DNA of 58,843 nt from a virus (IMGVR_UViG_3300020179_000035:1-58843), one strand, 5' to 3'. Shown: positions 6,533-46,619, numbered from the stretch's first letter. Translations and numbers: made by a program. The notes: a model not told the origin generated them from the letters alone.

Positions 6533-7462
6533 ATGTCTACAGAATTCAATAACAATGAAGACAATGCTCCTGAAGATCTTTTTGATCTTGAGACCAATAT
6601 GACTTCTGAAGATGATACTCTTCCTAATGATCTTGTTCGTCAAGCATTTGACTTCTTCCAGTTCAATCAGCGTATGCTGAACAAAGACGTTCGCAATATG
6701 GAAGTCGATCTTGATCGACGTAGTGCGCGAGAACTTGTCTCGCTGTATTACGACCTTCAAAAAGCTCGTGTTGCTTACAATAATCAGGTCCGTGACTTAG
6801 TTAAAGCCGGCAGTCCGCACGATCTTCTCAGTTATTATTCTCAAATTATTGAGATGCTTGAGAAGTCACTCGTTGCACCTCTTGATCACTTCGGTGATCA
6901 GTTTGCTGTCGGTCGGTGGGCCAAGAGTCAGTATGCCATTGGACCAGTTATCACTGCTGGTCTTGTCGCCCATATTGATATCGCCAAAGCACCCACTGCT
7001 GGAGCTATCTGGCGTTTTGCTGGTCTCGATCCTACCATCAAGTGGGAAAAGAATCAAAAGCGTCCCTACAACGCACAGTTGAAAACGCTTACATGGAAAA
7101 TTGGTCAGAGCTTCATGAAGTTCTCCAATAAAGATCAGTGCTTCTATGGCCACCTGTACAAACAGGATAAGGCTCGCCGTATTGAAAAGAATGAGAATGG
7201 CGATTATGCAGAATTTGCCAAGCATCTTCTCGCTACCAAGAATTGGAAACCCAGTCCTGCTAAAACTTGTCTGCAGGGGGGAATGCTTCCTCCTGGTCAG
7301 ATTGATGCACAAGCACGACGTTTGGCAGCCAAGATCTTCCTGAGCCACTACCATGCAGTGGCATATCAGGCACATTATGGCACTCCTGCTCCTCGGCCAT
7401 ACATCATTCAACATGGTGGACACGTTCACGAGATTGCTATTCCCAACAATCCGTTTGCGTAA
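6533..7462 (+). CDS. IS110-like Transposase_20-domain protein, apparently domesticated
   Basis: 309 residues. Residues about 140-230 match the C-terminal domain of IS110 transposases (Transposase_20): an HhH-like GPVITAGLVAHI, then FAGLDPTI, and a helical block with LTWKIGQSF, where IS110 enzymes carry their serine. The N-terminal half is acidic and then coiled coil; the DEDD/RuvC-like domain of real IS110 transposases is not seen. There are no flanking repeats suggesting a live element. It sits between two strong terminators and directly before the 37-bp array. A DNA-binding or recombination role is inferred. Confidence 0.5.
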   Translation: MSTEFNNNEDNAPEDLFDLETNMTSEDDTLPNDLVRQAFDFFQFNQRMLNKDVRNMEVDLDRRSARELVSLYYDLQKARVAYNNQVRDLVKAGSPHDLLSYYSQIIEMLEKSLVAPLDHFGDQFAVGRWAKSQYAIGPVITAGLVAHIDIAKAPTAGAIWRFAGLDPTIKWEKNQKRPYNAQLKTLTWKIGQSFMKFSNKDQCFYGHLYKQDKARRIEKNENGDYAEFAKHLLATKNWKPSPAKTCLQGGMLPPGQIDAQARRLAAKIFLSHYHAVAYQAHYGTPAPRPYIIQHGGHVHEIAIPNNPFA

Positions 7463-9049: not shown

Positions 9050-10072
9050 ATGAATAAGCCAATTAAACTAAATATTCAAAAAATTACTCCTACACCTTCG
9101 GTCACTAGAAAAACCAGAAAGGTCAAGGAAATTTCCGTTAATACTACTACTAAGCGTACCGCAAAAACTAAGTCTGTTGAAATTGACTCCGACGAAAATT
9201 TTGATACCGAGCTTGATCAATACGCTAATGTTGATATCACAGCTTATCTTCCTACTAATGCTAGCAAGCTTGATTCAAAGGTTTACCCTCGTGACATCCA
9301 TATTGATCATTCTTACCAAAGACAAACCAATCTTGCTAGGGTTAATCAAATTGTAAGAAATTTTACTCCTAACGCTATTGGCACTGTTTATTTGTCTATG
9401 CGTGACGATAGTACTCTTCACATCATCGACGGTGCTCATCGACTCCTTGCTTTGCGTAAGCTCGGTCTTGATGATTATCCCATCAATGCCCAGGTTTTCT
9501 TTGGCTTGACTCCCAAAGAAGAAGCTGAGTTGTTTGTCATTATGAACGAAGCTCGTGTAAAGCCTCGTCGTCATGAACTTCATAAAGCTTCTGTTACAGC
9601 ACAAGATCCTTTAGCAATAGAGATTGATAATATTATTACTTCTCTTGGTCTTGTTCTTGTTGACGTTCCATTAGATAATCATGTTCGTGCAGTCAAAACT
9701 GTTTACACTCTTTACGCTAAAATGAACAAGCGTTCATTTATCAATTTGTTTAAAGTGTTGAAGTCGGCTAACGGTTCTTCTTGTGACTCATTTTGTGTTC
9801 AATATCTCGTTGCTGTAGCTGTTATACTAATTAAGTATCCTACTGTTGATATTGAACGTTTGATTCATGTTATTTCAAAAATGGGTCATCCTAAAGTTGT
9901 CATTGGCAATCTTACAGCTTCTGCCGGTGGAAAAATTACACTTTTGCAAATGCAGCTTGCTATTGCTAGCGTAATTGTTGACAACTATAATTCTCGCTTA
10001 CGTAATGCTAGGCTTGATAAAACATATATTATTACTTCCAATTACAAAACCTACTTAAATCCTGTTGTTTAA
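9050..10072 (+). CDS. ParB-like protein
   Basis: 340 residues. A basic, Thr-rich N terminus is followed by the ParB N-terminal (ParB/Srx) fold: IHIDHSYQR near residue 85, then IIDGAHRLLALR (about residues 125-136), the counterpart of the DGxHR nucleotide-binding motif, and a helical region with FVIMNEARVKPRRHE. The C-terminal part is helical and could bind DNA. ParB-like proteins partition DNA or act as nucleases or CTP switches. No ParA is seen. A ParB-like gene also names the PRTRC gene set, other members of which occur at 19.8-25.7 kb. Confidence 0.65.
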   Translation: MNKPIKLNIQKITPTPSVTRKTRKVKEISVNTTTKRTAKTKSVEIDSDENFDTELDQYANVDITAYLPTNASKLDSKVYPRDIHIDHSYQRQTNLARVNQIVRNFTPNAIGTVYLSMRDDSTLHIIDGAHRLLALRKLGLDDYPINAQVFFGLTPKEEAELFVIMNEARVKPRRHELHKASVTAQDPLAIEIDNIITSLGLVLVDVPLDNHVRAVKTVYTLYAKMNKRSFINLFKVLKSANGSSCDSFCVQYLVAVAVILIKYPTVDIERLIHVISKMGHPKVVIGNLTASAGGKITLLQMQLAIASVIVDNYNSRLRNARLDKTYIITSNYKTYLNPVV

Positions 10073-19773: not shown

Positions 19774-21207
19774 ATGAGCAATGTACAATATTCTTTTGTT
19801 TCAACAGAAGAAGGGCATCTTACTTTTCGTTCTTCTGTTAATTCTTTTGGTCTAGACCATGTTACTGATAAGGACATGGTTTCTTTTTATACATCTTTCT
19901 CTAATTATGCCTACATTGATACTGGATTGATGCCTGTTGATGGTTCAGGTTTATTAGCTCTTCGTTCCGCTGGCAATCATACCCAAATTGTTTATCAACA
20001 TAAACCAGGTATGTATTATATTAACTGGGGTTCGCATGAGGGTGACAAGGATGCTGTTAAGTATTATGTTGCTCAACCTTATCGCATTGTTATTGCCGAC
20101 CTTGTAGATGGAAACATTTACGGTGCAAGAACATTCTATACACCAATTCCTGTCACTTATCCTGATATACCACTCTATCACGTTAATCTTCCAAATATTA
20201 ATTGCAAAGGGTATCGTGGCAATGCAGTAGGCTGGATTTGTTTGTACCATACTGAAGATATAACAAATTATCCTTTTGGAGAAAAGCTTGCCAAAGTTCT
20301 TGATCGTTGTTCTGGTACTGAAGCTTACAACGATATTAATATGAATGAAACTGATGGTCCTCGTTTCTATTCCGAAAACGAAAAACCAAGTTTTCTTCAT
20401 GATCCTTTTGAATGGCAAGAATATTCTCATAAGTATGGATATGAATGGACTCTTGATCCCGACCTATGGATCCCTGTTTTAGTTAAAAATCGCGACGATC
20501 AAGGCAAACACGATTATAGTGGTCAGCCATTAACTTTGGCTGATGCTATTACTGGTAATTATTCTGTTTATTATTCCGATACTGTCATACCCAAACCTGT
20601 TAATCAAATACTTCGCTCTGACTATTCTCTTCCTTCTTCTAAAGTTTTTGCTTGGTTTAAACAAGCTTACAATTCTTCTACCACTCAATCTCCTGTTATT
20701 AATGTCATTGAAAAATCTCAAACTATTAAAGTAGATCAAAGCAATGCCCAACCAGTATTTGTACCAGAAGAAGATGTATCAGAAGAAGATGTATGGTACT
20801 GTGACAACTGTCAAGAAACCTTTTCAGTTCATGATTGTACTCCAAATACCACATATCATTCTGCCTTTATTTGCGCTCATTGCTTTGAAGATAAATACGT
20901 TTATGCTTTAAATACTAACGATTATCATCATGCCGAATCTGAAAATATGTTGTGGTTAGCTATTTCGGATGCTTGGATCTATCTTCCCAAGGCATCTCCT
21001 GAAACCTACAAATATTGTAGCGATTGTGATACTGGTATCTATATAACTCACCAAAAATTTGATGAATTCCATATGGCTCCCAAAGAAGCAGATTTACCTG
21101 AAACTTGTCTTTCTTGTTATGAACAATTTCAAGCTCAACAACATAACTATGAAAATTCTTTAATAGCTTTAGATGAAACGCCAGAAGAAAATACAACGCC
21201 TTTTTGA
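19774..21207 (+). CDS. E2-like / PRTRC protein B-like protein with C-terminal zinc ribbons
   Basis: 477 residues. The N-terminal 200 residues show the pattern of PRTRC protein B, a prokaryotic E2 (ubiquitin-conjugating) relative: TGLMPVDGSGLLAL (50-63), a later strand pair, NLPN (138-141) and then GWICLY with Cys156 where an E2 has its active-site Cys. The C-terminal part has two Cys-rich modules: Cys343/346 with Cys367/370 and Cys415/418 with Cys445/448, each able to bind zinc. It is directly before the JAMM, E1 and ubiquitin-like genes in the same direction. The E2 fold is a family-pattern inference. Confidence 0.5.
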   Translation: MSNVQYSFVSTEEGHLTFRSSVNSFGLDHVTDKDMVSFYTSFSNYAYIDTGLMPVDGSGLLALRSAGNHTQIVYQHKPGMYYINWGSHEGDKDAVKYYVAQPYRIVIADLVDGNIYGARTFYTPIPVTYPDIPLYHVNLPNINCKGYRGNAVGWICLYHTEDITNYPFGEKLAKVLDRCSGTEAYNDINMNETDGPRFYSENEKPSFLHDPFEWQEYSHKYGYEWTLDPDLWIPVLVKNRDDQGKHDYSGQPLTLADAITGNYSVYYSDTVIPKPVNQILRSDYSLPSSKVFAWFKQAYNSSTTQSPVINVIEKSQTIKVDQSNAQPVFVPEEDVSEEDVWYCDNCQETFSVHDCTPNTTYHSAFICAHCFEDKYVYALNTNDYHHAESENMLWLAISDAWIYLPKASPETYKYCSDCDTGIYITHQKFDEFHMAPKEADLPETCLSCYEQFQAQQHNYENSLIALDETPEENTTPF

Positions 21208-21260
21208 TATGACAAACATAAATATACAAATAATTAAAATATTAATATTTAGGAGAAATA

Positions 21261-22964
21261 ATGTCTGAACAACTAGCTCTTCCTCTTGAGCAAAACGAAG
21301 AAGAATATCTTACATTGGAAGATCTTAATCCTCTTTGGATTACTCCTGATGGTCTTCCAACTTTTATGGCAGATAGATCTGACATTTGTGAATGTATTGA
21401 GTCTTTTGGTTTTAGCATTTATTATATTATTGCTAACGAAGCAAAAGAAATTAAGCCTACAAATACTTCTTCTCACTACACTGGTACTGTTACATACAAT
21501 AATACCAATAAAACAGCTGCCATAACTCCTGTTCCTGTTATCGTTAGGTCTTCTCAAATCTATCGTGTTGTTAACAATTTTGTTGGTCGTTCTGTTGCGG
21601 CTGTTCGCCCAGAACTTACAAGCGATTTTGTTGATATGGAAGAGGAGGCTATTTACAACATGCCTCCAATTCCTTATATTCTCATTGAAAAGCTTGATCA
21701 ATTCTTTAGACTTGTTGAAGCTCAACATGGTACAGAATCTATCGTGATGCTTACATTTGACCAAGACAAACAGGAATCTGACGGCTGGGGCATACTTGTT
21801 CCCGATCAGTCCAATACTTCTGTTCACTGCAATTACGATCCAGACAGTATCGCTCAGATTAAACCCGACAATGTCCTCATTGTTGGCTCTGCGCATAGTC
21901 ATCCTGGAATGAGCGCTTATGCTTCTGGGACTGATCATGCAGATCAAGCTGATTTTGATGGTATTCACATTACTTTTGGCTGGCAAAAATCTGTAAACAA
22001 CGGTGCAACTCAATATTATATTGAAATGCAAATGGCTGGAAAAGCTTACAAGCTTGATCCAGAAGATGTTTTTGAAGGTTACAATATTGATAGGGCCCCA
22101 GATCCTGAAGTTGTAGGATGGACTGATAAAGTAAAAAAAGTCAACCCCCCCAGTACGGGGGGTACAGTAACGGCAGTTCCTGGGCAACCTCTGCCCCAAC
22201 CCCAGGCTCCTATTCAGGCTACTACGGTGGGTGGACCCAGTAGTAAAAAGCTTACTGGTTATATCAATTATTCCTCTCATATGTTAAATATTATAGATGA
22301 GACTATAAGTTATGAACACAAAGCTATTCTTGTTTGCGAAGTAACTCCTGCAAATGATAAAACTAAGTTTCATTGTCCATCTTGCTTTTCTTATCTTCCT
22401 ATCAGTTCTATAACTCGTGATTATTGTTGTTCTTTTTGTGACGTTCCCTTGTGTCTTCCGGACACTTCAATAGATCAAATAGTTTATGATATATCTAAAT
22501 ATTGTGAAGAAAGAAATATTTCTCAAGACGCTGTTTTATATATGCTCACTAAAGATATTCAAAATGAATACATGATTTTGAGACTTACTCCAGAGCTAAT
22601 TACTGATTATCTTGATTATCAATGGCCAAAAAATAATTCTCCTATTAATGATGAACAGCTTACTCTTTGTTGTTCTCAAACTAAAGATCAATGTTTTTGT
22701 GAAGTTCAAATTCTAACTATGGATACTTTTGATTTTGATAATTTTATGGGGAATTCTGATGTTTATTCACAACATTCTGATTGCTGGAAATGTGAGCATT
22801 ATTACACAGCTCACTGCCCTAGATACATAGATCTTGTAACCACTTTTATGTCTTCTCCTGACAAGAAAGAACCAAAGCAATATTCTGAAACTATTGTTTC
22901 AGACGGTTGTGCATATTATAAAGACATATATGCATATGAAAGAGATACATATGAACCCCACTGA
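21261..22964 (+). CDS. JAMM/JAB metallopeptidase with Cys-rich C terminus
   Basis: 567 residues. The catalytic core lies at about residues 138-260: Glu159, then HSHP (His212, His214) and S-x-x-D (Ser222, Asp225), the JAMM zinc motif of ubiquitin-like deconjugating enzymes, including PRTRC protein A. The N-terminal 130 residues are unassigned. The C-terminal half has two Cys clusters (CPSC...CSFC near residue 370 and a CWKC-type cluster near 510) that look like zinc sites. It would process the precursor or remove the ubiquitin-like protein encoded downstream. AGGAGA precedes the ATG. Confidence 0.8.
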   Translation: MSEQLALPLEQNEEEYLTLEDLNPLWITPDGLPTFMADRSDICECIESFGFSIYYIIANEAKEIKPTNTSSHYTGTVTYNNTNKTAAITPVPVIVRSSQIYRVVNNFVGRSVAAVRPELTSDFVDMEEEAIYNMPPIPYILIEKLDQFFRLVEAQHGTESIVMLTFDQDKQESDGWGILVPDQSNTSVHCNYDPDSIAQIKPDNVLIVGSAHSHPGMSAYASGTDHADQADFDGIHITFGWQKSVNNGATQYYIEMQMAGKAYKLDPEDVFEGYNIDRAPDPEVVGWTDKVKKVNPPSTGGTVTAVPGQPLPQPQAPIQATTVGGPSSKKLTGYINYSSHMLNIIDETISYEHKAILVCEVTPANDKTKFHCPSCFSYLPISSITRDYCCSFCDVPLCLPDTSIDQIVYDISKYCEERNISQDAVLYMLTKDIQNEYMILRLTPELITDYLDYQWPKNNSPINDEQLTLCCSQTKDQCFCEVQILTMDTFDFDNFMGNSDVYSQHSDCWKCEHYYTAHCPRYIDLVTTFMSSPDKKEPKQYSETIVSDGCAYYKDIYAYERDTYEPH

Positions 22965-23715
22965 TTCCAAACGTTTCATTCTTGTTGGCGCTGGAGGAAT
23001 CGGCACTTGGCTTGCCGCTGGTCTTGTTCGCCTTCTTGAATGGAAGTTTCCCAATTCTGCTCTTATCATTGTAGATGGCGATACTTACGAAGAAAAAAAC
23101 AAAGAGCGTCAAGATTTTACTAAGCTCGGCAATAAAGCCGTTGTCAAAGCTACAGAATTAGTTCCACAATTTCCCAAAACTACAATTATCCCCGTTGCTA
23201 AATGGGTTGTTGATGATAATTTTTCTGGAATTGCGGACGAACAAAGTCCTAAAATTAAAGCTAGTGATCTTATCAGAGAAAACGATGTTATTTTTGCTGT
23301 AGTTGACAATTTTGCTGCAAGAAAAATACTTTTTGATGCCGCAACAAAACTTAATAACGTTGACGTTTTTACAGGCGGAAACGACGATGCTTTATTTGGT
23401 TCTATTTATCATTATCAGAAACGCGATGGCGTAGAGATTACTGTTCATCCAGCTGAATTTCATCCAGAATATCATAATCCTCCAGATAAAAATCCTGGTG
23501 AACTCAGCTGCCAACAGCGTTCTCAAATTGAAGGCGGAACACAGCTTCTTGCTACTAATATGGCGGTTGCATCTTTTATTCTGGGTAGGGTTCAGAAAAT
23601 TATAGTGTCCAATCAGAGTCCGGAAGAAACAGAAATTTTCTTCGATCTGGGCATAGGCAAATCTGAGCCGTACAACAGAATGCATTCATCCCTGAATGAA
23701 ACAATTACAGTATAA
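22951..23715 (+). CDS. ThiF/E1-like adenylating enzyme
   Basis: 254 residues from the ATG at 22951, overlapping the JAMM gene by 14 bases. The Rossmann motif is GAGGIG (13-18), followed by VDGDTYEEKN and ERQ (52-54), the E1/ThiF nucleotide motif, and VVDN (117-120). GELSCQQR holds Cys187, a candidate for the thioester or transfer Cys. Such enzymes adenylate the C-terminal Gly of a ubiquitin-like or sulfur-carrier protein. The PRTRC ThiF protein has this size. The adjacent ubiquitin-like gene makes the pairing convincing. Confidence 0.85.
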   Translation: MNPTDSKRFILVGAGGIGTWLAAGLVRLLEWKFPNSALIIVDGDTYEEKNKERQDFTKLGNKAVVKATELVPQFPKTTIIPVAKWVVDDNFSGIADEQSPKIKASDLIRENDVIFAVVDNFAARKILFDAATKLNNVDVFTGGNDDALFGSIYHYQKRDGVEITVHPAEFHPEYHNPPDKNPGELSCQQRSQIEGGTQLLATNMAVASFILGRVQKIIVSNQSPEETEIFFDLGIGKSEPYNRMHSSLNETITV

Positions 23716-23716
23716 T
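23711..23716 (+). promoter_or_regulatory. Candidate -10 of the ubiquitin-like gene
   Basis: TATAAT overlaps the stop region of the E1 gene and lies 20 bases before the ATG, with AGGAG between. No good -35 is seen. Confidence 0.4.
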
Positions 23717-23736
23717 ATAAAATAGGAGATATTACA

Positions 23737-23991
23737 ATGGAAACCTCAAGTAGCAGTGAAGGACAGCCAAGCCGTTCTTCCGGTATGGCCAATATTCGTT
23801 ATGGCGTTTACAATCAGCCTAGCAATATTGCCGGTAAGTCAATCAAGGAAGTTCGTGAGCAATTCAGCAAGATTTGGGGAATCCCCAATGATGCTGTCGC
23901 ATACTGTGGCAAAGATAAGCTTGACGAGAACGCAGTAATTCAACCTGGTCAGAACGTCGAATTTCACCGTCGTGCTGGCGAGAAGGGCTGA
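23737..23991 (+). CDS. Ubiquitin-like protein (PRTRC protein C-like)
   Basis: 84 residues. A 16-residue Ser-rich, probably flexible N terminus precedes a beta-grasp-sized domain of about 67 residues. It ends FHRRAGEKG: the terminal Gly after a basic and aromatic strand matches PRTRC protein C, which ends similarly in RRA...GxKG, and no residues follow the Gly, so no maturation is needed. It could be conjugated by the E1 and E2-like proteins. Its codons end in C or G more than its neighbours', suggesting high expression. It sits between its own -10 box and a strong terminator. Confidence 0.7.
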   Translation: METSSSSEGQPSRSSGMANIRYGVYNQPSNIAGKSIKEVREQFSKIWGIPNDAVAYCGKDKLDENAVIQPGQNVEFHRRAGEKG

Positions 23992-24002
23992 TTACTCATA
24001 TA

Positions 24003-24068
24003 CGAACAGTTGTTTCTAACACTGTTCGGTAGGGGGAGGATACTCTTTATGGGTATCCTCCCCCTCTC
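24003..24068 (+). terminator. Double hairpin terminator after the ubiquitin-like gene
   Basis: First hairpin: CGAACAGT/ACTGTTCG (24003-24028). Second: GGGGGAGGATAC with GTATCCTCCCCC (24032-24064), followed by TCTCATTT. The pair lies in the 128-base gap between the ubiquitin-like and AAA genes. Confidence 0.8.
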
Positions 24069-24119
24069 ATTTACTTCATTATTTAAAAATCCTACAACTA
24101 ATATTACGGTGATAAGATA

Positions 24120-25724
24120 ATGTTTGACAAAATTAAACTGGGATGTCCCAATCTTTGGCTTCAGTCTTCTGATTTTTCAAGGGTTACTGACATTATTACA
24201 TCTACTATTTCTCGCAATTTTTACACTATGGATTTTGTCAATGGATTTTCTAAGTTTGTTGATGGACAATGGAAACAAATTCTTGTACCTAATCCTGCTT
24301 ACCCTGAAATGGCCACTGATTCACATATAATCACTTTTGATCCTCAAGTCGCTCTACATTATCTTACTACAGACAAAACTATTACTCGTTCTACATATAT
24401 TATTAATGTACCTTCATCTCCGGCTGATTCCATTACACCTTATTCTTCTATTCTTTACCATTTCAAATCTCTTTATCGCACAGCCTTTTGGGCAGACGAT
24501 ATAGCAGCAATGCCTTTGCAGTTTATTTTTATTTCTGCTCTCGAATGCCCAGAAGATTTTGTTCATTTGTTTACTGTTCTAGAAGATTCTTATCCAACTC
24601 CGCAAGAACTTTCTACAATCGTTACTCATATTAATGAATCAGCTCATGACCGTCTTATTACTGGCACTACAGTAAAAGAGATTGTTAACGCTGGTATCGG
24701 CCTTTCCGAATCCCAGTTTATTGATCTGTGCCTAATGTCCGTTGTCAATAATTCTAAAATTGATCCCAAGTATATTTATGATGTCAAAATGGCTAATATA
24801 AAGAAGAATGGTATTCTTGAAATACTTAAGCCTACCATATCTTTTTCTGATATTGGCGGTCTTGATAATATTAAGGATATCATTCGTCGTACTGCTGTTT
24901 TGCGTAAAGATCAACATCGTGCAATTTCTTTTGATGTAGTGCCAATCAGAAGACTTCTTATGGTTGGTGTTCCTGGTACTGGCAAATCTGCTATTTGTCA
25001 AGCTACTGCTAAAGAACTCAATCTTGATCTTGCACGCACTGGCATTAGCCAAGTTATGAATTCTTTCATTGGCCAATCAGAGGCCAATATGCGTGCAGTC
25101 TTTAAGCAGATCAGAGCCATGTCTCCTTTGTGCGTATGGATTGACGAGTTTGGTCGCGATCTTTCAGGTGGCACAAGTTCTTCTCATGTCGACGGTGGCA
25201 CAACTGATCGTGTTCACGGTGAGTTTTTGACTGGTCTCCAAGAACTTCCTGAAGACACATTTTTGTTGTGTGCTGCGAACTCTCTTGATTCTCTGAAACC
25301 AGAAATGCTTCGTGCTGACCGATTTGACAAAATTATGTTTGTTGGTTTACCTTCTTTTAGTGAACGCAAACATATTTTTCAAATTCATCTTTCTAAAATT
25401 GATACAGATCATTCTTTTGATTATGATGCTATCGCTGATGCAACTCAGTACATGACTGGTGCTGAGATAGTCTCTTTGATTAAAGAAACTAAATTTTATG
25501 TTGTTTCTGAATCTTTGAGACCTATCGAAACAAATGATATTCTTACTTATGCTTCTAAAATTAAAAATATTATTTGGATGAAACATCATGAAACGGTTGT
25601 CTCAATGTACAAATATGCGTTGGAACAGTGGGATTGGGCATCCACAGAACAAATGAACGATGCTACAATAATACTATCCAAAACTTCAACGCAAAAACAA
25701 TCAACATCCGTAACATGGAAATAA
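24120..25724 (+). CDS. AAA+ ATPase (Ycf46/Cdc48-like)
   Basis: 534 residues. The N-terminal 240 residues are unassigned. The AAA domain starts with FSDIGGLDNIK, as in Ycf46 and Cdc48 modules. Walker A is GVPGTGKS (283-290), Walker B VWIDE (339-343), and the arginine region is LRADRFD. The C-terminal small domain follows. AAA ATPases of this class unfold or remodel proteins. In the cassette it could act like Cdc48 on conjugated proteins, which is inference. Its start follows a terminator, so it may be transcribed separately. Confidence 0.8.
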   Translation: MFDKIKLGCPNLWLQSSDFSRVTDIITSTISRNFYTMDFVNGFSKFVDGQWKQILVPNPAYPEMATDSHIITFDPQVALHYLTTDKTITRSTYIINVPSSPADSITPYSSILYHFKSLYRTAFWADDIAAMPLQFIFISALECPEDFVHLFTVLEDSYPTPQELSTIVTHINESAHDRLITGTTVKEIVNAGIGLSESQFIDLCLMSVVNNSKIDPKYIYDVKMANIKKNGILEILKPTISFSDIGGLDNIKDIIRRTAVLRKDQHRAISFDVVPIRRLLMVGVPGTGKSAICQATAKELNLDLARTGISQVMNSFIGQSEANMRAVFKQIRAMSPLCVWIDEFGRDLSGGTSSSHVDGGTTDRVHGEFLTGLQELPEDTFLLCAANSLDSLKPEMLRADRFDKIMFVGLPSFSERKHIFQIHLSKIDTDHSFDYDAIADATQYMTGAEIVSLIKETKFYVVSESLRPIETNDILTYASKIKNIIWMKHHETVVSMYKYALEQWDWASTEQMNDATIILSKTSTQKQSTSVTWK

Positions 25725-25736
25725 AAAGGGGAAACA

Positions 25737-26378
25737 GTGACTAACAATGCTTATGATAATGTGGAAGATTTTTTATCTTCTATAGACGATGATGGTTCTC
25801 CTATTGAAACTATGAAGAATTCTGATAACAAAGAATTTCATCAGGAGCTTTATAAGAAATGGTTTAGATCTAAAACTCAATCTGGCTTCTTAGCTATTCG
25901 CCCTTGGCATCAAGCTTTGAAGATGAAAATCGATATTGGTAAAACATCTCCGGAAGGCAAACTTGTTAGTAGTACCGCTGTTTTTGTTGATTCCATTGAC
26001 TTCTCTGCTTATCTTAAATCCATTACTACGGAAAATGCTGTAAACAATTATCCTAAAAACGACAAAATGGGCATTCCTACTGACGAAGGTTTTGTTTCTT
26101 ATGGTGGCGCCGTCATTGATGGTAAGCCTATATCTAGAATATTTAAAGCCCATTATTGGCAGTTTGCAGAAACATATGACGCTACTGCTTTTGTTTGGAA
26201 GTGTGGCCACTTTGCTGCACGCAAATCTGATAGTGGTGCCTTTATTCCCGATATGAAATCACCTTTATCTGTAGATCAAATTAAGGTAACTCGTCAAGAT
26301 ATCTGTTCTATCTCTTATCTTATGAATTTATCTTTAATTTCTTATGTTGCAAATACTCAAGATTGGTATGAAATATGA
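25737..26378 (+). CDS. Hypothetical protein downstream of the AAA gene
   Basis: 213 residues from GTG, 6 bases after AAAGGGG. Acidic N terminus, then a mixed domain with FKAHYWQF and KCGHFA. No family is recognised. It is close behind the AAA gene and likely cotranscribed. Confidence 0.6.
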   Translation: MTNNAYDNVEDFLSSIDDDGSPIETMKNSDNKEFHQELYKKWFRSKTQSGFLAIRPWHQALKMKIDIGKTSPEGKLVSSTAVFVDSIDFSAYLKSITTENAVNNYPKNDKMGIPTDEGFVSYGGAVIDGKPISRIFKAHYWQFAETYDATAFVWKCGHFAARKSDSGAFIPDMKSPLSVDQIKVTRQDICSISYLMNLSLISYVANTQDWYEI

Positions 26379-26954: not shown

Positions 26955-27493
26955 CTGTGGTGCAACGCTTTGAAAATACAACACATTTATATAATTATTT
27001 TGTGTCTTCTCTTTCGTCTAATAATTTTGTAAAACTAAATCAAGACAATGTGCAACTTTTCGCTGAGACATATTCTCTTCATTCTTCTATTATTAATGAA
27101 GTTTCCCAGTCTCCTTATAATTTCTATCTTTATACTTCTTCTAAAACTTCTTATCGTAAGAATGTTCATCCATATTTACCTAACGTTCTTTACAAAAGAT
27201 TTTTTAATAGTCTAAAGATATTCAATATTATACGTGAAGCTTCTTCTTCAATGGTTCTTATTCACATGTTGCCTTTTAGTGAAGAACTATTTGATTCCAT
27301 CAACAATTCTTCTAATTTAGATAATATCAAAGTGCTTAATCAGATTATTGACAATTTTTCTAATGTATCTGCTGATAATCAGTATTACATTGATTATATT
27401 AAAACTTTAGAAGCAAAATGTTTAGAACTTCAAAATTTAAACTCTAATCTTTTGGATCAAATTCAAAATTTTAAACTGACTACTTGGTACTGA
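26951..27493 (+). CDS. Hypothetical protein
   Basis: 180 residues with an ATGA overlap upstream. Ser-, Asn- and Tyr-rich and probably helical, ending in a leucine-rich coiled coil (LEAKCLELQNLNSNLLDQI). No family is recognised. Confidence 0.5.
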   Translation: MTVVQRFENTTHLYNYFVSSLSSNNFVKLNQDNVQLFAETYSLHSSIINEVSQSPYNFYLYTSSKTSYRKNVHPYLPNVLYKRFFNSLKIFNIIREASSSMVLIHMLPFSEELFDSINNSSNLDNIKVLNQIIDNFSNVSADNQYYIDYIKTLEAKCLELQNLNSNLLDQIQNFKLTTWY

Positions 27494-27498
27494 ATATT

Positions 27499-28587
27499 AT
27501 GTCTGATGATTCTTTTACTTTTGATAGTTTTTCATTTGTAAATAATTTTAATAATTTTAACGATATTATTTTTAAACAAGATTCTAATTTAAGTTTAGAA
27601 GAATTTTTTGCCGATTTCAAAAAAACAGTTTCTAAACTTACAAAAGAAAGTTTGATAGAAAAGGTAAATACTGACATGTCCAATTACCCAATTGTTCCTG
27701 TTTCCTCGGATCAATACAAGGCAGTTATATACCCACATATGTCACCTGAAGGTAAACCCTTACATTTCAATTTATATATTAATCATGATCCTTCATTACC
27801 TTCTGATATTGTTGTTATAGACTACTTAAATTCTGGTGAATTGTTTTGTAATCTTTCTCAAATTAATCTTCAAAACACTCGTCCTTTACTTCAAAATCTA
27901 TATGCCAGATATTTAAGTTCACCTGAATTTGTTAATGACACCCATCCAATAGGATACACATCTACTATGATACCTTCCGCTGTAACATGTGTTTCTCCTG
28001 TAAATTCTGATTCTATAGCTTGGTCTTTTCCTCTGGCTAAACTTTTTGATTATACTCATGTTTCAAAGGATATTCCGGTTTGCCAGTATTACACTCATCA
28101 ATCATTGGACGATTCTGTTCCAGTTATTATTTCTTCTAAATATAAATACGCTAATGTAATTCCCGGCAATCATATGTGTTCTCATCCATCTGTGTCTCAG
28201 AATCCTTATAGTTGTTCATTTTTTACTTTTTTCTCAAATTGTTCTATGTATTCTCCGTCCCAACAAGAAATATTATTTAAAACTGTGACATCACCTAATT
28301 CTTCGTCCACTCTTGATTTTGTGTTAACTTACTCTCTTACTTCTTCGGGTAACCATATGTTCGTTTTAACGAATCAAACTATTGGTGAAGACGTTAATGT
28401 ATTAGTTTATCCTCAAACTTATTCTTATGATAAATGTTTAGAAGAAGCCACTTCAATATATAATCAATATATTGAACCGTATTCTTCTACTCTTTGCGTT
28501 ATTTCTGAAAACCAAAAAATTAGTTCTTCTGATTCAACAAAATATGTAGAAAAAGAAAGTTATATTACATCTCTCTTGGTAGGTTGA
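27499..28587 (+). CDS. Ser/Tyr-rich protein, possibly related to the two that follow
   Basis: 362 residues from the ATG at 27499. It is Ser-, Tyr-, Asn- and Pro-rich like the next two proteins, and contains VVIDYLNSGELFCNLS near residue 105, a candidate match to the NxxxxGxxC part of their E2-like motif. The similarity is weak and no family is assigned. It ends 1 base before the next gene. Confidence 0.5.
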   Translation: MSDDSFTFDSFSFVNNFNNFNDIIFKQDSNLSLEEFFADFKKTVSKLTKESLIEKVNTDMSNYPIVPVSSDQYKAVIYPHMSPEGKPLHFNLYINHDPSLPSDIVVIDYLNSGELFCNLSQINLQNTRPLLQNLYARYLSSPEFVNDTHPIGYTSTMIPSAVTCVSPVNSDSIAWSFPLAKLFDYTHVSKDIPVCQYYTHQSLDDSVPVIISSKYKYANVIPGNHMCSHPSVSQNPYSCSFFTFFSNCSMYSPSQQEILFKTVTSPNSSSTLDFVLTYSLTSSGNHMFVLTNQTIGEDVNVLVYPQTYSYDKCLEEATSIYNQYIEPYSSTLCVISENQKISSSDSTKYVEKESYITSLLVG

Positions 28588-28588: not shown

Positions 28589-30226
28589 ATGTATTTAGAT
28601 AATCAACATTTTACTAGTGAACAATCTTTTCTGAATTCAGATTCTTTTATTACTTATTCAATAAATTATTCTAATTCTAACATTGATCCTTTATTGGAAT
28701 ATTCTCGTTATGCACTAATTCTTTCAAGAAAAAATTTTATTCATCCTAGCACTTTAGATCTTTTTAAAGAAAAATATACTGCTTGCGATCCTGTTGTTCT
28801 TAACAATATAGATGAAATATTTTCTAAAGCTTTAGATCCTCACAAGTATAATGATAATTATAATGACGATACAGGCTATCATTATTCTCCTCCGTATGTA
28901 TTTTCTTCTGAAGCTTCTATTCTTTCCTCTATATCTATTGAAAACCTTGCGAATATTCATGCTAAATCTTTACAATCTTCTGTTCCTACCTCAACTTACC
29001 CCGTAGCAACAAGGTATGTTTCCTCTAATGGAACGCTGTTTATTGAGCGTCCGCCATTTCAGGCTACCATAGATTACAAACCTGGTAATGCTTCAACTAA
29101 AAAGGCAAAGTTGCCTTCCAAAACCGTATGGATACCTTGGACTATTTATGTATTTAATCCAAATTATCCAGGTGGATCTCAACACATGTATTTTTCCTAT
29201 AAATCTTTGACTTCTATGTCAGATAGTTATTATCCTACTTATCTTCCAAATACTCATACTGATGGAAGAATATGCTATTCTAATAGTTTATCTACTCTTC
29301 CTATTCTCAGTTCTGATATTACTCCTGATTCTATGTATTCTTACATGATCAATGAGTTTTTTGCTGGTTCTTGGAATTCTGATCTTGTGAATCCCTGGTA
29401 CTATATGTTTTATGAAAGACTTAGAAATCATATAAAATATTATGAGTATTCTGATCTGGATAAAGAAGAATTTTCATATCGTATGCCTCTTTTGTTCAAA
29501 TTATTTCATCCTTCTCCTGAAATAATGCAACAAGCTGAACTTAACAAGATTCAGAAAATTTGGCAATATTATAATGAAAATATTCCTTCTAGGTTCTTTT
29601 ATGATTTGCCGTCAGATTTATTTCACTATTCTCTTTTGTCTTTATTATCTACTTTTTCTCTTAAAGAAATTCTTTCTGTTCAAGAAGAAGTACATTTGAT
29701 CTACCAAGACGTAGAACTTAAAGGTACAAATTCTATTTTTAATAATTTTCATAATTATCTTAATTTTAAACCTAAATCTTTTGAAGAGATATCTACGCTA
29801 AATACACATTTGCGTACAACAACACTTGTGTCTTCCCATGTTCGTGAGATTGTCAACTTAGCGTGTGCTGAAAATTCTCTTTTTTCTGAATTTGATTATA
29901 ACAAACTTGACAGACAAATTATTGCTGTTAATGTTCCTCCTTCAAACACTCCATTCAATCATCTTTCATATCATGCAAGAAATACAGTTTATTTTAATTC
30001 AATTAATGAACTTCCATTTGCTCCATCTTTTGTTATACCTATATATAATGTTGACAATTCGCAATCTTATTACCTAATTCCTTCTTCTGATATCTCTGTT
30101 GAACAACTTTATCTAGAAATGCTTAAAGTATATATAGATAATAGTCATTATTTTCCTTGTCAATCTACTCCTTTTTATGAAATCTTTCCTTTAAGAAGTG
30201 ACATTTTATCTCTTAGTCAAGGATGA
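28589..30226 (+). CDS. Large protein with E2/PRTRC-B-like motifs
   Basis: 545 residues. Residues 148-235 carry the ordered motifs ERPP (153-156), WIPWTIYV (181-188), YLPN (218-221) and GRIC with Cys229. PRTRC protein B-like E2 relatives have a comparable order: a PP motif, a hydrophobic strand, then LPN-like and G-x-C. The rest is Tyr/Ser-rich with no recognised domain. Cys229 is a candidate active site. It overlaps the next gene by 4 bases. Confidence 0.45.
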   Translation: MYLDNQHFTSEQSFLNSDSFITYSINYSNSNIDPLLEYSRYALILSRKNFIHPSTLDLFKEKYTACDPVVLNNIDEIFSKALDPHKYNDNYNDDTGYHYSPPYVFSSEASILSSISIENLANIHAKSLQSSVPTSTYPVATRYVSSNGTLFIERPPFQATIDYKPGNASTKKAKLPSKTVWIPWTIYVFNPNYPGGSQHMYFSYKSLTSMSDSYYPTYLPNTHTDGRICYSNSLSTLPILSSDITPDSMYSYMINEFFAGSWNSDLVNPWYYMFYERLRNHIKYYEYSDLDKEEFSYRMPLLFKLFHPSPEIMQQAELNKIQKIWQYYNENIPSRFFYDLPSDLFHYSLLSLLSTFSLKEILSVQEEVHLIYQDVELKGTNSIFNNFHNYLNFKPKSFEEISTLNTHLRTTTLVSSHVREIVNLACAENSLFSEFDYNKLDRQIIAVNVPPSNTPFNHLSYHARNTVYFNSINELPFAPSFVIPIYNVDNSQSYYLIPSSDISVEQLYLEMLKVYIDNSHYFPCQSTPFYEIFPLRSDILSLSQG

Positions 30227-31380
30227 GTATGCAAAATTTTAATTATCTTTCATTTACCCCTTATGGTTGCCTTATCAGACATCCTCTATATGATGATGAA
30301 ATATTTGTTTCTAATTCAAACAATTATCTTACCGTTAACGGATCTCAAACTGAAATTCCTGAACGTATAGTTAATCCTATTATTAATTATTTTAATTCTC
30401 TTTCTAGTAAATCTACTATTCAAGCTGACACCGGTATACTCCCACCCGGATTAATTCATGTGGATAATCAATATGTTATTTTTGAACGTCCACCGACTTA
30501 TCAAAATATACAGTTAATTCCAGCAACACTAGAACACATTGACGAAAAATCCTATAAAAAGTATATATTTAGACTTCCAATTCCCTGGACCGTATATTTC
30601 GTTTCATATTCCATTTACAATGGTGCCTATTACCCGTATCGTATAGCCATGTACTTCATGGCTAATTCTTTACAAGGATCAGCTTTAGATTCTCATCGGT
30701 TATATTTGCCACCTTTAGTTAATTTTTATAACAATTCTACTTTATGTAATCCTATGTTTGATAGCATGGATGAAGTAACTCGTTATGAAAATAATGTTTC
30801 TGGCGTTATCAACGCTGCTTATAATTGGATTTGGAACACTGGATCAAACCTTGATTTGACCACCAATATTGTTGAGTGTATTATTCAAGGTAATCAAAAT
30901 TCTTATTTTCCATCTTCTCATCCCTTTCATATTAATAATATTGGTTTGTCAAATTACGCTATTTCTTCACATTCTTATTATATTGAATTCCCTTATATAG
31001 CTCGTGCTTTTCAAAATTGGGAAAAAATATCTATAGATCAAATATCTTCAATTTCCTGGCCTAATCCTTGCACTTGTGAGCAGGTTCACCATCACATACA
31101 TAATATAGGTACTTCAATGCTTCTTGATTATTTTCGAGATCATGATATAGATCCTCTTTCGGTTGCTCTTTCCCCAGAAGAGTCTGAAGAAACTGGTAAT
31201 CTGTATCATTATAATGAGTTCGCTTATTATAATTATCTTCGCAAATTACAATCTCCTCCACTTTATTTTAATCAAGCAGCTGAAACATTTGCATCCAATA
31301 CTCAAGTCACTTTTCAGGATGCTCTTTCTCTTGACAAAATCATTTCAAATGTTTTTTTAACTCTTTCTTCTCTTCTATGA
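30223..31380 (+). CDS. Second large protein with E2/PRTRC-B-like motifs
   Basis: 385 residues, overlapping the previous gene by 4 bases. The same ordered motifs occur: LPPGLIHVDNQYVIFERPP (73-91), PWTVYF (121-126), YLPP (161-164) and, 11 residues on, Cys175. The first motif is close to the LPP...PP segment known in PRTRC protein B. Outside these motifs the two proteins have diverged. The C-terminal part is acidic. Confidence 0.45.
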   Translation: MSMQNFNYLSFTPYGCLIRHPLYDDEIFVSNSNNYLTVNGSQTEIPERIVNPIINYFNSLSSKSTIQADTGILPPGLIHVDNQYVIFERPPTYQNIQLIPATLEHIDEKSYKKYIFRLPIPWTVYFVSYSIYNGAYYPYRIAMYFMANSLQGSALDSHRLYLPPLVNFYNNSTLCNPMFDSMDEVTRYENNVSGVINAAYNWIWNTGSNLDLTTNIVECIIQGNQNSYFPSSHPFHINNIGLSNYAISSHSYYIEFPYIARAFQNWEKISIDQISSISWPNPCTCEQVHHHIHNIGTSMLLDYFRDHDIDPLSVALSPEESEETGNLYHYNEFAYYNYLRKLQSPPLYFNQAAETFASNTQVTFQDALSLDKIISNVFLTLSSLL

Positions 31381-42756: not shown

Positions 42757-43392
42757 TTACTGTTCTCTATATGTTTTCGATAAGTATTTGTATATTTTTC
42801 CTTGATGTTGTTTGCGATCATTAACTATTATATCTTGATACTCTACACCTTTAGTGAAATACCAGTGATCTGGTTCGGCAAAATGAAAAAATATCATTTC
42901 AACTTCGTTATTTGCTGGATCAGGAAATTTATTTCGCCAATGATATTGATCTTCTCCGTAATAACATACAGCTTGATTTGGTTCCAGAATAAATTCTTTA
43001 TTATTTATATAGATTGGCCAATTTGTTTTGTATGATATGCACAAATCAATTGTATAAGTACAGGCATTATCATCGACATGATAAGGTAGATTAGCTCTTG
43101 TTCCATGATACATTGAGTACACACAGTATGTAGGAACTAAACTATTAGAATTAAATATACTTTTAGCCATGTTGGTAAGAAGCAATTGTTCTTCTGAGAG
43201 GAACTCCTCATCAGGAATACTATATCTTCCTAAACCTGAATTGTATTCTAATAATGAATTATTTTTTTTATAAATAATTCTATTTTTTAATTCAAGAAAT
43301 TTTTCCTCTGAAAAGACATTGTTTAAAATAAATGGTTCGGGTCTTACGGTCAGCATTCTATTTGTATAATAATCATAAACTTTATTTGTCAT
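42757..43392 (-). CDS. 2OG-Fe(II) oxygenase-like protein
   Basis: About 211 residues from the ATG; a GTG 18 bases upstream is an alternative start. The jelly-roll pattern has HVDD (HxD: His and Asp about 105-107), a strand, then a conserved QYHWRNKF with the distal His. These are the iron ligands of 2OG oxygenases. A clear Arg for 2-oxoglutarate was not placed. One of three such genes in this island. Confidence 0.6.
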   Translation of the reverse strand: MTNKVYDYYTNRMLTVRPEPFILNNVFSEEKFLELKNRIIYKKNNSLLEYNSGLGRYSIPDEEFLSEEQLLLTNMAKSIFNSNSLVPTYCVYSMYHGTRANLPYHVDDNACTYTIDLCISYKTNWPIYINNKEFILEPNQAVCYYGEDQYHWRNKFPDPANNEVEMIFFHFAEPDHWYFTKGVEYQDIIVNDRKQHQGKIYKYLSKTYREQ

Positions 43393-44089
43393 TACATTTC
43401 TTTTTTTCACTAACCTGAGTTTCAGTTTCTATTATTTGATTATCGAATTGGTTATTATTATCTTTTATAGTTTGTATAAAAGTTGATATAATCCATTTGT
43501 CGCCCGATATTGGCACGCAACCCTGATGTGGATAGGTCCAATGTGTGGGGAATAAACATATTGAACCAGCTTTTGCTGGAACTTTCAACTCATGTTCCCT
43601 AAAGTATGTTTCCCCGCCCATTTCAACATCGTTTAAATAAATGATTGCAGCCAACACTCTGTCTTTTGTGGTGGGAGTATGATCCATACCACCATCAATA
43701 TGCTCTCGATAATATCCAACTCCCTTTTTGTATTCCTGTACTCTAAATCCAGTATCTTGAATATTAACCCAGTCCCATAACCATCTAAACTCTTCTCTAT
43801 ATTTTGCTATAGATAAAAATAATTTTTCAACTATTGCGTTTTCGCAAGTATCTAACTTATCTGTTGGTAAATTATACTCAACAAGTGTATGGTGAGACCA
43901 ATTTATATCCATGCTATTTTTAATAGAAGTTAAGACACCACTAATAGTAGGACCAGGAGAAGCCATTATGTTGTAATACTTTTTTAACTCACTTAATGTT
44001 AAGTTACATATTTCTTTATCTATAGCATTTTCTGCAACCATTATTGCGGCAGATCTACCAGCTGGCCAATGAAAACTTATATTACTCAT
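43382..44089 (-). CDS. P4H-type 2OG-Fe(II) oxygenase
   Basis: 235 residues from the ATG after AAAGGA. YYREHIDGG gives HxD (His130, Asp132 in this numbering); AAIIYLNDVEMGGET is the typical P4H central motif, and FPTHWTYPHQG holds the distal His (188), followed by a Lys that takes the role of the 2OG-binding residue. Prolyl 4-hydroxylase-type enzymes hydroxylate Pro in collagen-like repeats, and a 750-residue collagen-like fibre is encoded upstream. That link is inference. Confidence 0.8.
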   Translation of the reverse strand: MSNISFHWPAGRSAAIMVAENAIDKEICNLTLSELKKYYNIMASPGPTISGVLTSIKNSMDINWSHHTLVEYNLPTDKLDTCENAIVEKLFLSIAKYREEFRWLWDWVNIQDTGFRVQEYKKGVGYYREHIDGGMDHTPTTKDRVLAAIIYLNDVEMGGETYFREHELKVPAKAGSICLFPTHWTYPHQGCVPISGDKWIISTFIQTIKDNNNQFDNQIIETETQVSEKKKCNDK

Positions 44090-44104
44090 TATCATCCTTT
44101 TGGT

Positions 44105-44356
44105 TTAACTATTTAAAAGTTTTTCGTAAGCGTTTAATACTTGTTTTAATCTTTTTTCAACAATAGTTTTCCAAGAATCGCCTAAAGCTTCGTTGCCAGA
44201 AAAAGTTGGTTGCCAAGTAAATTTGCCATCAACTACCTCTAATGATTCTGGATCTATGCCAACCATTATAGCAGCTGAATATATTTCTAGCTCCAACTTT
44301 TTACGAGCACTTGACCTTAGTGCTGCTTTCTCATTGCTGGATAATATGAAGTCCAT
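44105..44356 (-). CDS. Hypothetical small helical protein
   Basis: 83 residues. N-terminal helices with AARK-type charge, then GIDPESLEVVDG and a C-terminal helical coil. Similar in size to two other small proteins in the island, at 47316 and 48164, but no clear common family. Confidence 0.5.
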   Translation of the reverse strand: MDFILSSNEKAALRSSARKKLELEIYSAAIMVGIDPESLEVVDGKFTWQPTFSGNEALGDSWKTIVEKRLKQVLNAYEKLLNS

Positions 44357-44365
44357 CTTTTACTC

Positions 44366-45175
44366 CTAGTTTCTATTAAAAATTTTATTTAAAAAAGTTT
44401 TCTTTTCATTATCAATAGATTCATCAAGTTGTCTTTGAAGTTTTTTGTATTTACTTTTCTGTCTTTTTGGCATAAAAGGGCCACCAAAACCTCTATACTG
44501 CAATAGGTTATAGGCTATACTATCCCCCCATAATATGTCTAAAGACTTTTGTCTCTTAAAGGGAATGACGTGCCACATAGGTGTTCCCATTTCTATTTCA
44601 AATGGTTGATCTGTTAGAATATTCATAACAATATGTGCGTTATGATAATAGTCAGTATTAACTACGGCTGGTAACATAGTATAATTTGGGTTGGGATTCC
44701 ATAATGGTGGAAGAAATAGCGAAGACCATCCTGGAGCTGTTTTTGTTAACCATGGATTAATTACTTTGACATAATTAGCTTTTTCAATTTTTCTAACTTT
44801 TGTAACTGGACATTCTCCAGTTTGTCCATAGCTAAACTTTTCTATTCCAAAATTGCCCATATCTGTTGAAAGATCAAATTGACCCTCCCAAAATTTATGG
44901 TCAACTGATGGCCTAAACATTAATTTAGCCCAGAGTGGAATAGTGAATCCAGTTGCAATATAATCAGAAGTTCCAGAACAACGTTTTAGGCTACCCTCTT
45001 CTCCACTAAGTTGTTTCCACCAATCTGGCCAATTACCAAGATTTTGGTATGGCCTACATTCATCGTCCATTAATTGTGGGACATGAGGCGTCAATAATAC
45101 TTGGCCTTCTTTAATTTTTGGAATATCATTAAATACTTTTGGACTAACTATTTGCAATTTTTCTGAGTTCTTCAC
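44366..45175 (-). CDS. Conserved phage protein near the halogenase
   Basis: 269 residues if started at GTG at 45175, which overlaps the halogenase gene by 32 bases; a later TTG start is possible. Trp- and Pro-rich segments such as WSSLFLPPLWNPNPNY and a C-terminal basic region. It resembles DUF6065-type phage proteins, but the match is by eye and uncertain. Its role may be linked to the halogenase. Confidence 0.5.
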   Translation of the reverse strand: MKNSEKLQIVSPKVFNDIPKIKEGQVLLTPHVPQLMDDECRPYQNLGNWPDWWKQLSGEEGSLKRCSGTSDYIATGFTIPLWAKLMFRPSVDHKFWEGQFDLSTDMGNFGIEKFSYGQTGECPVTKVRKIEKANYVKVINPWLTKTAPGWSSLFLPPLWNPNPNYTMLPAVVNTDYYHNAHIVMNILTDQPFEIEMGTPMWHVIPFKRQKSLDILWGDSIAYNLLQYRGFGGPFMPKRQKSKYKKLQRQLDESIDNEKKTFLNKIFNRN

Positions 45176-46619
45176 CGTGATCTACCAACTTTTGACTAAG
45201 TAGTTGTTTTGCTATATTGTTTATATCTTTAATTCCCGGATATCTGGCACTATAAGCATCTAATTGAATTGATGCTATTTCTGGGTTAAGAACACCTTGA
45301 CCCTGAGCTACGTGCCATAAATGTCCTGCCGCAAAAAGCTCATATCCAGTAGATGGAACATCATGTACTTCTGGACACCTAATATTCCAAAGTTGCAAAA
45401 GATGTTCAAGAAGTTCTGGTTTTTCTGCTGATTGTTGCGCCAACCACATATCAGTATCTTTTCTATCAGAGATATAATGTAATGATATCATACATAATAT
45501 GTTATTCATAATGGAATCCATTATTCTATGATATTCTTTTATGCCATATGTTCTATCCTCGGAAAATGTCGGCAAATACGAGCACAAAAGCCTAGCCTGT
45601 TGAATTGTTGTTGATATAGAAGTGGCTTCCAGCGGCTCAACAAAACTTGCAGCCAGTCCAACAGCAATACAATTATTCTTCCATGTTTCTTTAAAATATC
45701 CAGAAGTAAAATCAATTACTTTAGATGGTTCAACTTCAAAACCATGTATTATAGAGGCTTCCCGTATAGCTTGTAGGGATGAACAGTAATCAGAAGAAAA
45801 CACATATCCATTACCTCTACGATTTAACGTGGGTATTTCCCACATCCAACCATTACTTAACGCCCGTGCTCTTGTATACGGTTTAATTTTTCCAGATGGA
45901 TCTGATTGAGTTGGGAAGGCAATTGCCTTATCACAAGGCAAATATTTTCTATATGGAATAAATGTTTGATCAGCAATTTTGCTAAGAATTTTTCTATGGA
46001 ATCCTGTAGCATCTATGAAAAAATCACCCACAATATTTTTCTGAGATGCTTTTAACAAAACACTTTCTATATATCCATTCTCCGAAACGGATACATCGCT
46101 TACTTCATCGTCAATAAAAGTTATTCCTTTTTCTTGAGATATTTGCGTAAGATACTGATTTAATTTAAATGTATCAAAATGGTATTGGTTAGACCCATAA
46201 TGTGTTTTTTCACCAAGATCAATAATCTTATCTTCTATTATTCCGCGCCAAGAATAAGTGTTTGTTAATAGCCTATTGTTTTCTAAGGCCGTTGCGTATC
46301 CAGCCCAAAAACTTCCAAATTGAACACCAGTTCCACCAACACTATGGAAATAATCAGGAGTATGATTCGTCCAATTTTCATATCTAATTCCATATTTATG
46401 GGTAATGTCTACATTTTTAATCATATCATGAGGATGAATGCCGACTAGATCTTGAAATATGCGCCAATGCTCAGTAGAGCCTTCTCCTACGCCTATGATT
46501 CCTATTTTATTTGATGATATATTTATAATATTATATTTTTTAAAATAAGATTTCAATATTAAGCCAGTAACCAATCCGGCCGTTCCAGATCCTACAATTA
46601 TTATTTTTTTTTCATTCAT
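45144..46619 (-). CDS. Flavin-dependent tryptophan halogenase-like protein
   Basis: 491 residues. GSGTAG near the N terminus binds FAD. GVGEGSTEHW and THKYGIRYENW follow, with the Lys in THK placed like the catalytic Lys of PrnA-type halogenases. GWMWEIP is the halogenase signature WxWxIP, and SFVEPLEATSI matches the C-terminal FAD region. Such enzymes chlorinate or brominate Trp or other aromatic groups using a flavin reductase. The substrate here is unknown. It overlaps the upstream gene by 4 bases. Confidence 0.88.
   Translation of the reverse strand: MNEKKIIIVGSGTAGLVTGLILKSYFKKYNIINISSNKIGIIGVGEGSTEHWRIFQDLVGIHPHDMIKNVDITHKYGIRYENWTNHTPDYFHSVGGTGVQFGSFWAGYATALENNRLLTNTYSWRGIIEDKIIDLGEKTHYGSNQYHFDTFKLNQYLTQISQEKGITFIDDEVSDVSVSENGYIESVLLKASQKNIVGDFFIDATGFHRKILSKIADQTFIPYRKYLPCDKAIAFPTQSDPSGKIKPYTRARALSNGWMWEIPTLNRRGNGYVFSSDYCSSLQAIREASIIHGFEVEPSKVIDFTSGYFKETWKNNCIAVGLAASFVEPLEATSISTTIQQARLLCSYLPTFSEDRTYGIKEYHRIMDSIMNNILCMISLHYISDRKDTDMWLAQQSAEKPELLEHLLQLWNIRCPEVHDVPSTGYELFAAGHLWHVAQGQGVLNPEIASIQLDAYSARYPGIKDINNIAKQLLSQKLVDHGEELRKIANS

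Follow-up and report, generated by a model that had tools for sequence, protein, structure and literature searches.

Type 6d operons, described by Iyer, Burroughs and Aravind in 2006, were predicted to encode a Ub-like protein, a JAB, an E1, and an E2 (PMC1779556), and they seem to correspond to the PRTRC A/B/C/ThiF proteins. The Pfam families of their proteins are PF14460, PF14454, and PF14464. The same logic of ubiquitin-like protein (Ubl), E1, E2, and JAMM protease is found in the BilABCD (bacterial ISG15-like) and Bub operons, which serve, or are presumed to serve, in bacterial immunity, whereas the cassette described here is virus-borne. Its Ubl also differs from BilA, which has two Ub domains, and PADLOC models gave no Bil identity, with weak E1-E2 matches for the E1 only. 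The tail-assembly proteins TAPI (Ub-like) and TAPK (JAB + NlpC/P60) of lambda/T1 likewise bring a Ub-like protein and a JAB together in a phage, but they come without E1 or E2 and are linked to tail genes, whereas our locus has a full predicted cascade away from the tail genes. In the Bacillus jumbo phage vB_BauM_KLEB27-3 (OM634661, L080), gp194-gp196 form a row of E2-like protein (PF14460), PRTRC_A-like JAB, and ThiF; the E2(PF14460)-JAB-E1 row is shared by the B. velezensis plasmid pAD3 (NZ_AP024502, L082), which may be a phage-plasmid. Both differ from our locus in their E1, which belongs to another clade, and in a row without a confirmed Ubl gene. Our survey of the open literature, whose coverage was partial and could have missed an earlier mention, turned up no paper on Ubl conjugation encoded by a phage.

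Genomic setting of the cassette

The window, as we call the whole 58,843-nucleotide stretch of DNA analyzed here, comes from an IMG/VR virus record (IMGVR_UViG_3300020179_000035). A 179.6-kb viral contig matched its positions 1-50726 (~50.7 kb) at 99.8-99.99% identity, and a terminase scored above the Pfam cut-off in 10 of 12 large contigs of the E1/Ubl family (11 window-type contigs and a 527-kb contig). Together with the gene content of the window, which includes tail-fibre, helicase, SSB-like, uracil-DNA-glycosylase (UDG), and WhiB genes and seven tRNA genes, these data indicate that the source is a large phage. The WhiB gene suggests that its host is probably an actinobacterium. Across the GC-rich collagen-like tail-fibre region (50727-58843), the 179.6-kb contig diverged, with 95% identity over 2.4 kb and no match beyond that in the stretches fetched.

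Five genes in one direction had been reported at 19774-25724, and all five ORFs were found there, on the + strand and tightly packed, with a 14-nt overlap between the JAB and E1 genes and a 21-nt gap between the E1 and Ubl genes; this adjacent order was kept across the loci of relatives. The limits given to the cassette proved too narrow, since the block runs on to about 31380. Its predicted features are as follows.

19774..21207, + strand: B477 (477 aa), divergent putative E2-like domain (residues ~1-290), then C-terminal zinc ribbons (4 CxxC); conserved in 38/41 loci
21261..22964, + strand: JAMM/JAB metalloprotease with C-terminal zinc ribbons (3 CxxC); PF14464 (Prok-JAB), E 8.8e-6, above the Pfam cut-off
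22951..23715 (ATG 22951), + strand: E1/ThiF-like activating enzyme, 254 aa, catalytic Cys in GELSCQ; PF00899, E 3.8e-12
23737..23991, + strand: Ubl modifier, 84 aa, C-terminal EFHRRAGEKG; AlphaFold2 beta-grasp model, Foldseek, conserved tail
24120..25724, + strand: single-ring AAA ATPase with a Cdc48/PAN/FtsH-like domain; PF00004, E 1.2e-23, AAA_lid_3; phrog_8638, E 2e-66
25737..26378, + strand: O213, conserved protein always directly after the AAA gene; 41/41 loci, 77% mean column identity
28589..30226, + strand: O545, second E2-like protein, Asn221-x7-Cys229; PRTRC_B-family HMM, E 8e-7
30223..31380, + strand: O385, third E2-like protein, Asn167-x7-Cys175; PRTRC_B-family HMM, E 1e-6

The cassette lies in a + strand arm with the helicase, SSB-like, UDG, WhiB, and tRNA genes, and the tail genes lie elsewhere, leaving the role in virion assembly suggested by the initial annotation without support. 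In promoter scans, the real sequence performed no better than shuffled sequences. Elsewhere in the window, a transposase-like protein was encoded within the phage genome at 6533-7462 (phrog_4285, E 3.5e-39). A tryptophan-halogenase-like protein (phrog_2928, E 4e-95) was found within 42757-48171 on the - strand beside several 2-oxoglutarate/Fe(II) oxygenase-like proteins, tailoring enzymes that are unusual for a phage.

The modifier, its activating enzyme, and the JAMM protease

The Ubl had no match in Pfam. Its AlphaFold2 model (pLDDT 78), built from an alignment of 28 relatives, showed the order beta-beta-alpha-beta-beta-beta, and ubiquitin, SUMO1, and NEDD8 were its top PDB matches in Foldseek (best E, 6e-5). 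The best 50 PDB matches listed were all ubiquitin, ubiquitin variants, or ubiquitin-family proteins and complexes (SUMO1, NEDD8, and FAT10). The beta-grasp fold, set beforehand as a check on the 84-residue protein, was thus recovered. The tail EFHRRAGEKG was invariant in 8 window-type rows, two rows of another alignment carried RRSGEKG, and the pattern EF(h/l)(R/K)x(A/S)GxKG was near universal among relatives. PRTRC protein C ends in FVRAAGAKG plus three residues, a tail similar to the FHRRAGEKG of the window Ubl, as pointed out earlier. The window Ubl should need no maturation, because its C-terminus is already Gly. Some relatives carry a tail past this Gly (SL, NI, or C), and a single 319-aa ORF of another locus (L134:7707-8666) carries two Ubl domains in tandem, of which the second ends in AGRKG, as a possible poly-Ubl precursor; the JAMM protease would therefore have something to cut.

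The E1 was the most conserved protein of the cassette. Its GxGGxG, D-x-D, NxxRQ, Lys, Asp, and Cys were invariant in 12 proteins including PRTRC ThiF, which confirms the adenylation motifs and Cys read initially, and the E1 aligned with PRTRC ThiF in HHalign (E 1.4e-9, 96%). A scan of bacterial host genomes with the E1 alignment revealed no close copy there. The JAMM motifs noted before (HSHP and S-x-x-D) were equally sound: the zinc-site residues E159, H212, S213, H214, S222, and D225, with the spacing H212-S-H214-x7-S222-x2-D225, did not vary across 14 diverse homologues, which came from window-type phages, other phages, and plasmids and included a true PRTRC_A. The N-terminal region of the protein diverged, and the alignment contained no conserved Trp at the place matching the JAB-N domain, which has a conserved Arg and Trp in type 6d (PMC1779556). 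In plasmids of Alicyclobacillus (L076:4973-5911) and Rubrobacter (L081:4761-5771), a JAB has a Ubl-like domain ending in ...KKGA fused in front of it (Prok_Ub, E 6e-4, for L076), perhaps a self-cleaved Ubl-JAB precursor.

E2-like proteins

The 477-residue protein had been read as E2/PRTRC-B-like, and this reading held only in part. B477 matched nothing in Pfam, NCBIfam, or other family models, and it had no direct profile match to PRTRC_B. An E2 fold had been set beforehand as a check, and its model found no fold match in the PDB; in BFVD, significant E values were obtained with uncharacterised phage proteins only. What connects it to E2s are profile links through intermediates, in single HHalign comparisons with O385 (E 1.2e-5) and with two tandem E2-like proteins from the 527-kb phage (E 1.1e-6), a pair that itself reached the PRTRC_B group at E 3e-7 to 6e-8 in profile comparison. 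A strong B477-PRTRC_B profile value was discarded as circular, as L031 rows were present in both alignments. The candidate active-site residue of B477 is Cys156 in GWICLY, and an insert changes the spacing between Asn and Cys in this protein.

O545 and O385 were found by a PRTRC_B-family profile while the second phage clade described below was being scanned. In E2 enzymes, the HPN...Cys spacing equals Asn-x7-Cys (UbcH5, N77/C85; Ubc9, N85/C93). This signature was present in 17/17 O385 members and 16/18 O545 members, and at or near the equivalent place in 8/9 PRTRC_B-family proteins. C229 of O545 was invariant in 18 homologues (motif PN-x-Y-x-DGRIC), as were N167 and C175 of O385 in 17 homologues (motif P-x-x-NFY-x-NG-x-LC). 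Single HHalign comparisons linked O385 to PRTRC_B (E 9.6e-8, 94%), O545 to PRTRC_B (E 8.5e-5), and O385 to O545 (E 1.6e-18), with controls against unrelated families (AAA, JAB, and O213) at E >=0.05 throughout. PF14460 (Prok-E2_D) was weakly reached by 5/17 O385 members. Type 6d E2s have a conserved helical His downstream of the Cys (PMC1779556), and no invariant His followed the Cys in the O385 or O545 alignments (17 and 18 relatives). All four alignments used to search PDB sequences gave no usable match. O545 and O385 are, judged by these profiles and motifs, better E2 candidates than B477, and we conclude that the window encodes two good and one doubtful predicted E2-like proteins. Directly before the O545/O385 pair lies the gene for a Cys-rich, fast-evolving protein of 367 aa (O367, 27484-28587) that some relatives also keep; it matched no known family, and inspection by eye gave no sign of an E2 relation.

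Conservation across phages

Scanning with alignments of the E1 and the Ubl identified 41 Ubl loci on 40 viral contigs of 13-268 kb. The order B477-JAB-E1-UBL-AAA-O213 was kept in these loci, save three cut by contig ends: E1, Ubl, AAA, and O213 were in order in all 41, with B477 missing from three. Compared with the relative L005, dN/dS was 0.025 for E1, 0.047 for Ubl, 0.07 for AAA, and 0.11 for JAB; the values for the E2-like proteins were 0.13 (B477), 0.22 (O385), and 0.44 (O545). Ranges were 0.025-0.04 for E1, 0.05-0.16 for Ubl, and 0.44-0.65 for O545. The conserved core is under strong purifying selection while the E2-like proteins change fast, and the order kept over 40 contigs together with low dN/dS indicates that the arrangement is not due to chance. 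One contig (IMGVR_UViG_3300042868_009074, 267766 b; L046, L055) bears two diverged whole cassettes ~215 kb apart, reflecting duplication, co-assembly, or a chimera.

The curated models closest to the AAA ATPase were CDC48/PAN/FtsH, with scores far under the cut-offs, and its aromatic pore loop SFIGQSE is kept. The protein, including its own N-terminal domain, is related to the AAA of Corndogvirus mycobacteriophages (L015:7824-9602, over 89% of its length). No Ubl set was found near the Corndogvirus gene, and for this reason the AAA ATPase may have a different job.

A broader E1 profile yielded at least 178 related viral contigs as candidates, of which 80 were kept and 66 loci (L085-L150) examined. 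In this second clade (e.g., L099:3503-12659 and L032:3939-16638), JAB-E1-Ubl was contiguous in 65/66 loci and E2-JAB-E1-Ubl in 59/66, usually followed by another ThiF-like protein. Downstream, 59/66 loci had a gene bearing the NADFDGD motif of RNA polymerase beta-prime, which Pfam confirmed in L032 (beta too) and three large contigs, making a link between Ubl conjugation and phage transcription possible. A search of the 527-kb contig and of the 11 large window-type contigs found no multi-subunit RNA polymerase. Overall, about a hundred or more large viral contigs carried what appears to be a complete Ubl-tagging kit, with the gene order kept.

Relationship to PRTRC and type 6d operons

The set had been described as PRTRC-type, and as a statement of membership this did not survive comparison with curated models. 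In NCBIfam, E1 scored 25.3 bits against TIGR03736 (PRTRC ThiF; cut-off, 144.75) and JAB 20.1 bits against TIGR03735 (PRTRC A; cut-off, 101.8), and the PRTRC B and C models matched neither B477 nor UBL. Comparison with a Paraburkholderia set showed no PRTRC D/E/F or adjacent ParB among the cassette neighbours. In the E1 tree, both phage clades and the 527-kb phage grouped together (support, 98/96) apart from PRTRC and from Firmicute plasmid/phage E1s, and a placement inside the PRTRC clade was not found. PRTRC membership was rejected on these three grounds. The wider proposal, that a phage carries a ubiquitin-like conjugation set (Ubl, E1, E2-like, and JAMM) related to PRTRC A/B/C/ThiF, is upheld at the level of sequence.

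The likeness to type 6d consists of a small Ub-like protein ending in Gly, a JAMM-motif JAB adjoining an E1 without rhodanese, E2-like proteins with a conserved Cys (O385 and O545, by profile and Asn-x7-Cys), and the same catalytic residues. The phage cassette departs from type 6d in its order, E2-JAB-E1-Ubl, where the Ubl follows E1; in its three E2-like proteins; in the zinc ribbons that JAB and B477 carry; in an AAA ATPase and O213 that stand in place of PRTRC D/E/F/ParB; in an E1 that belongs to a separate clade; and in E2-like proteins that lack the helical His. Because it combines 6d architecture with exclusion from PRTRC by curated models, the cassette is, on sequence grounds, a new phage-borne variant and a sister lineage of type 6d (E1-E2-Ubl-JAB) operons.

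Proposed mechanism and alternative explanations

The cassette is probably a phage-encoded, reversible Ubl protein-conjugation system. Gene identity, conserved motifs, the beta-grasp fold of the Ubl, linkage, and purifying selection were all established computationally. The reading draws on catalytic residues of E1 and JAMM that are invariant across phages, plasmids, and PRTRC; on the Ubl fold and its near-universal ...AGxKG tail; on the E2 signature and E2-family profile matches with clean controls; on the order kept in both clades with low E1/Ubl dN/dS; on the tandem and tailed Ubls of relatives as material for JAMM cleavage; on an AAA gene, with an aromatic pore loop, that adjoins the UBL gene in 41/41 loci; and on a 6d-like architecture. 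It is weakened by B477, tied to E2s through intermediates, without a PDB match and with altered Asn-Cys spacing, by the non-conserved 6d His, by the Corndogvirus AAA without a Ubl set, and by a window Ubl whose terminal Gly leaves nothing to mature; that no E3 or protease partner was seen with the cassette also counts against it.

From these data we infer a thioester relay, isopeptide transfer, and a role for the AAA ATPase. The E1 would adenylate the C-terminal Gly84 of the Ubl and then load the Ubl onto its own invariant Cys, from which one or more E2-like proteins would accept it (Cys229 of O545, Cys175 of O385, and perhaps Cys156 of B477). Once charged, these would pass the Ubl to lysines of phage or host proteins, with partner choice probably aided by the zinc ribbons on the E2-like and JAB proteins. 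The JAMM protease would mature tailed or tandem Ubl precursors in relatives and strip the Ubl from targets. In the weakest step, the AAA ATPase may pull on or extract Ubl-tagged proteins as Cdc48 does. The replication-type neighbours here and the RNA polymerase adjacency in the second clade point away from virion assembly and towards a role in controlling replication or transcription, and our guess is that the substrates would be the machinery for these two processes, from the early to the middle stage of infection.

Several features would also fit a sulfur-carrier system, in which the E1 would thiocarboxylate the Ubl (as for ThiS/MoaD/Urm1), the sulfur would be donated to, e.g., tRNA or a metabolite, and JAMM would trim the Ubl: distant phage Ubls were best matched by ThiS and TGS in Pfam, ThiF/MoeB models matched the E1, and the phage has tRNA genes. 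We regard this as unlikely given the dedicated E2-like proteins with their conserved Asn-x7-Cys, and no rhodanese, cysteine desulfurase, or thiolation enzyme was seen near the cassette; moreover, the pairing of a JAB with an E2 is typical of conjugation operons (PMC1779556). An equally doubtful explanation is counter-defence, whereby mimicry would sequester or inactivate host Bil/CBASS/Bub Ubl systems with no cascade of the phage's own. Host Ubl systems are anti-phage (PMC10097602) or regulated as immune operons (PMC13373217), and the E2-like proteins evolve fast, as in conflict (see O545). However, an inert mimic would hardly keep all E1 and JAMM catalytic residues with E1 the most conserved protein, and carriage by many large-phage lineages suggests a core role.

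Least probable, and disfavoured, is a plain PRTRC cassette taken from a plasmid and doing whatever job PRTRC may have in plasmid maintenance. PRTRC_A and PRTRC_ThiF are the closest NCBIfam models, the Ubl tails are alike, and the window has a ParB-like gene at 9050-10072; yet this gene is ~10 kb from the cassette, every PRTRC model scored far under its cut-off, the D/E/F genes are absent, and the phage E1s form their own clade. Beyond the reversible conjugation system preferred here, a broader reading that we hold tentatively is that a full viral counterpart of ubiquitin, with one E1, a Ubl, a DUB, and several E2s that evolve rapidly, operates in large phages. It would be coupled to a Cdc48-like unfoldase in the window clade or to the RNA polymerase locus of the phage itself in the second clade and, during infection, would tag host or phage machinery and remodel it.

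Implications

Our findings suggest that bacterial viruses may have their own ubiquitin-like signalling during infection. Bacterial Ubl conjugation is known chiefly from anti-phage defence or from an unexplained plasmid cassette, and here the same chemistry would be on the side of the virus, where each E1 is accompanied by several E2-like proteins, an arrangement also seen in eukaryotes. The phage cassettes make the function of the 6d/PRTRC operons, a long-standing question, testable in an infection setting, and such small, self-contained E1/E2/Ubl/DUB sets would be useful for studying the origin of the ubiquitin system.
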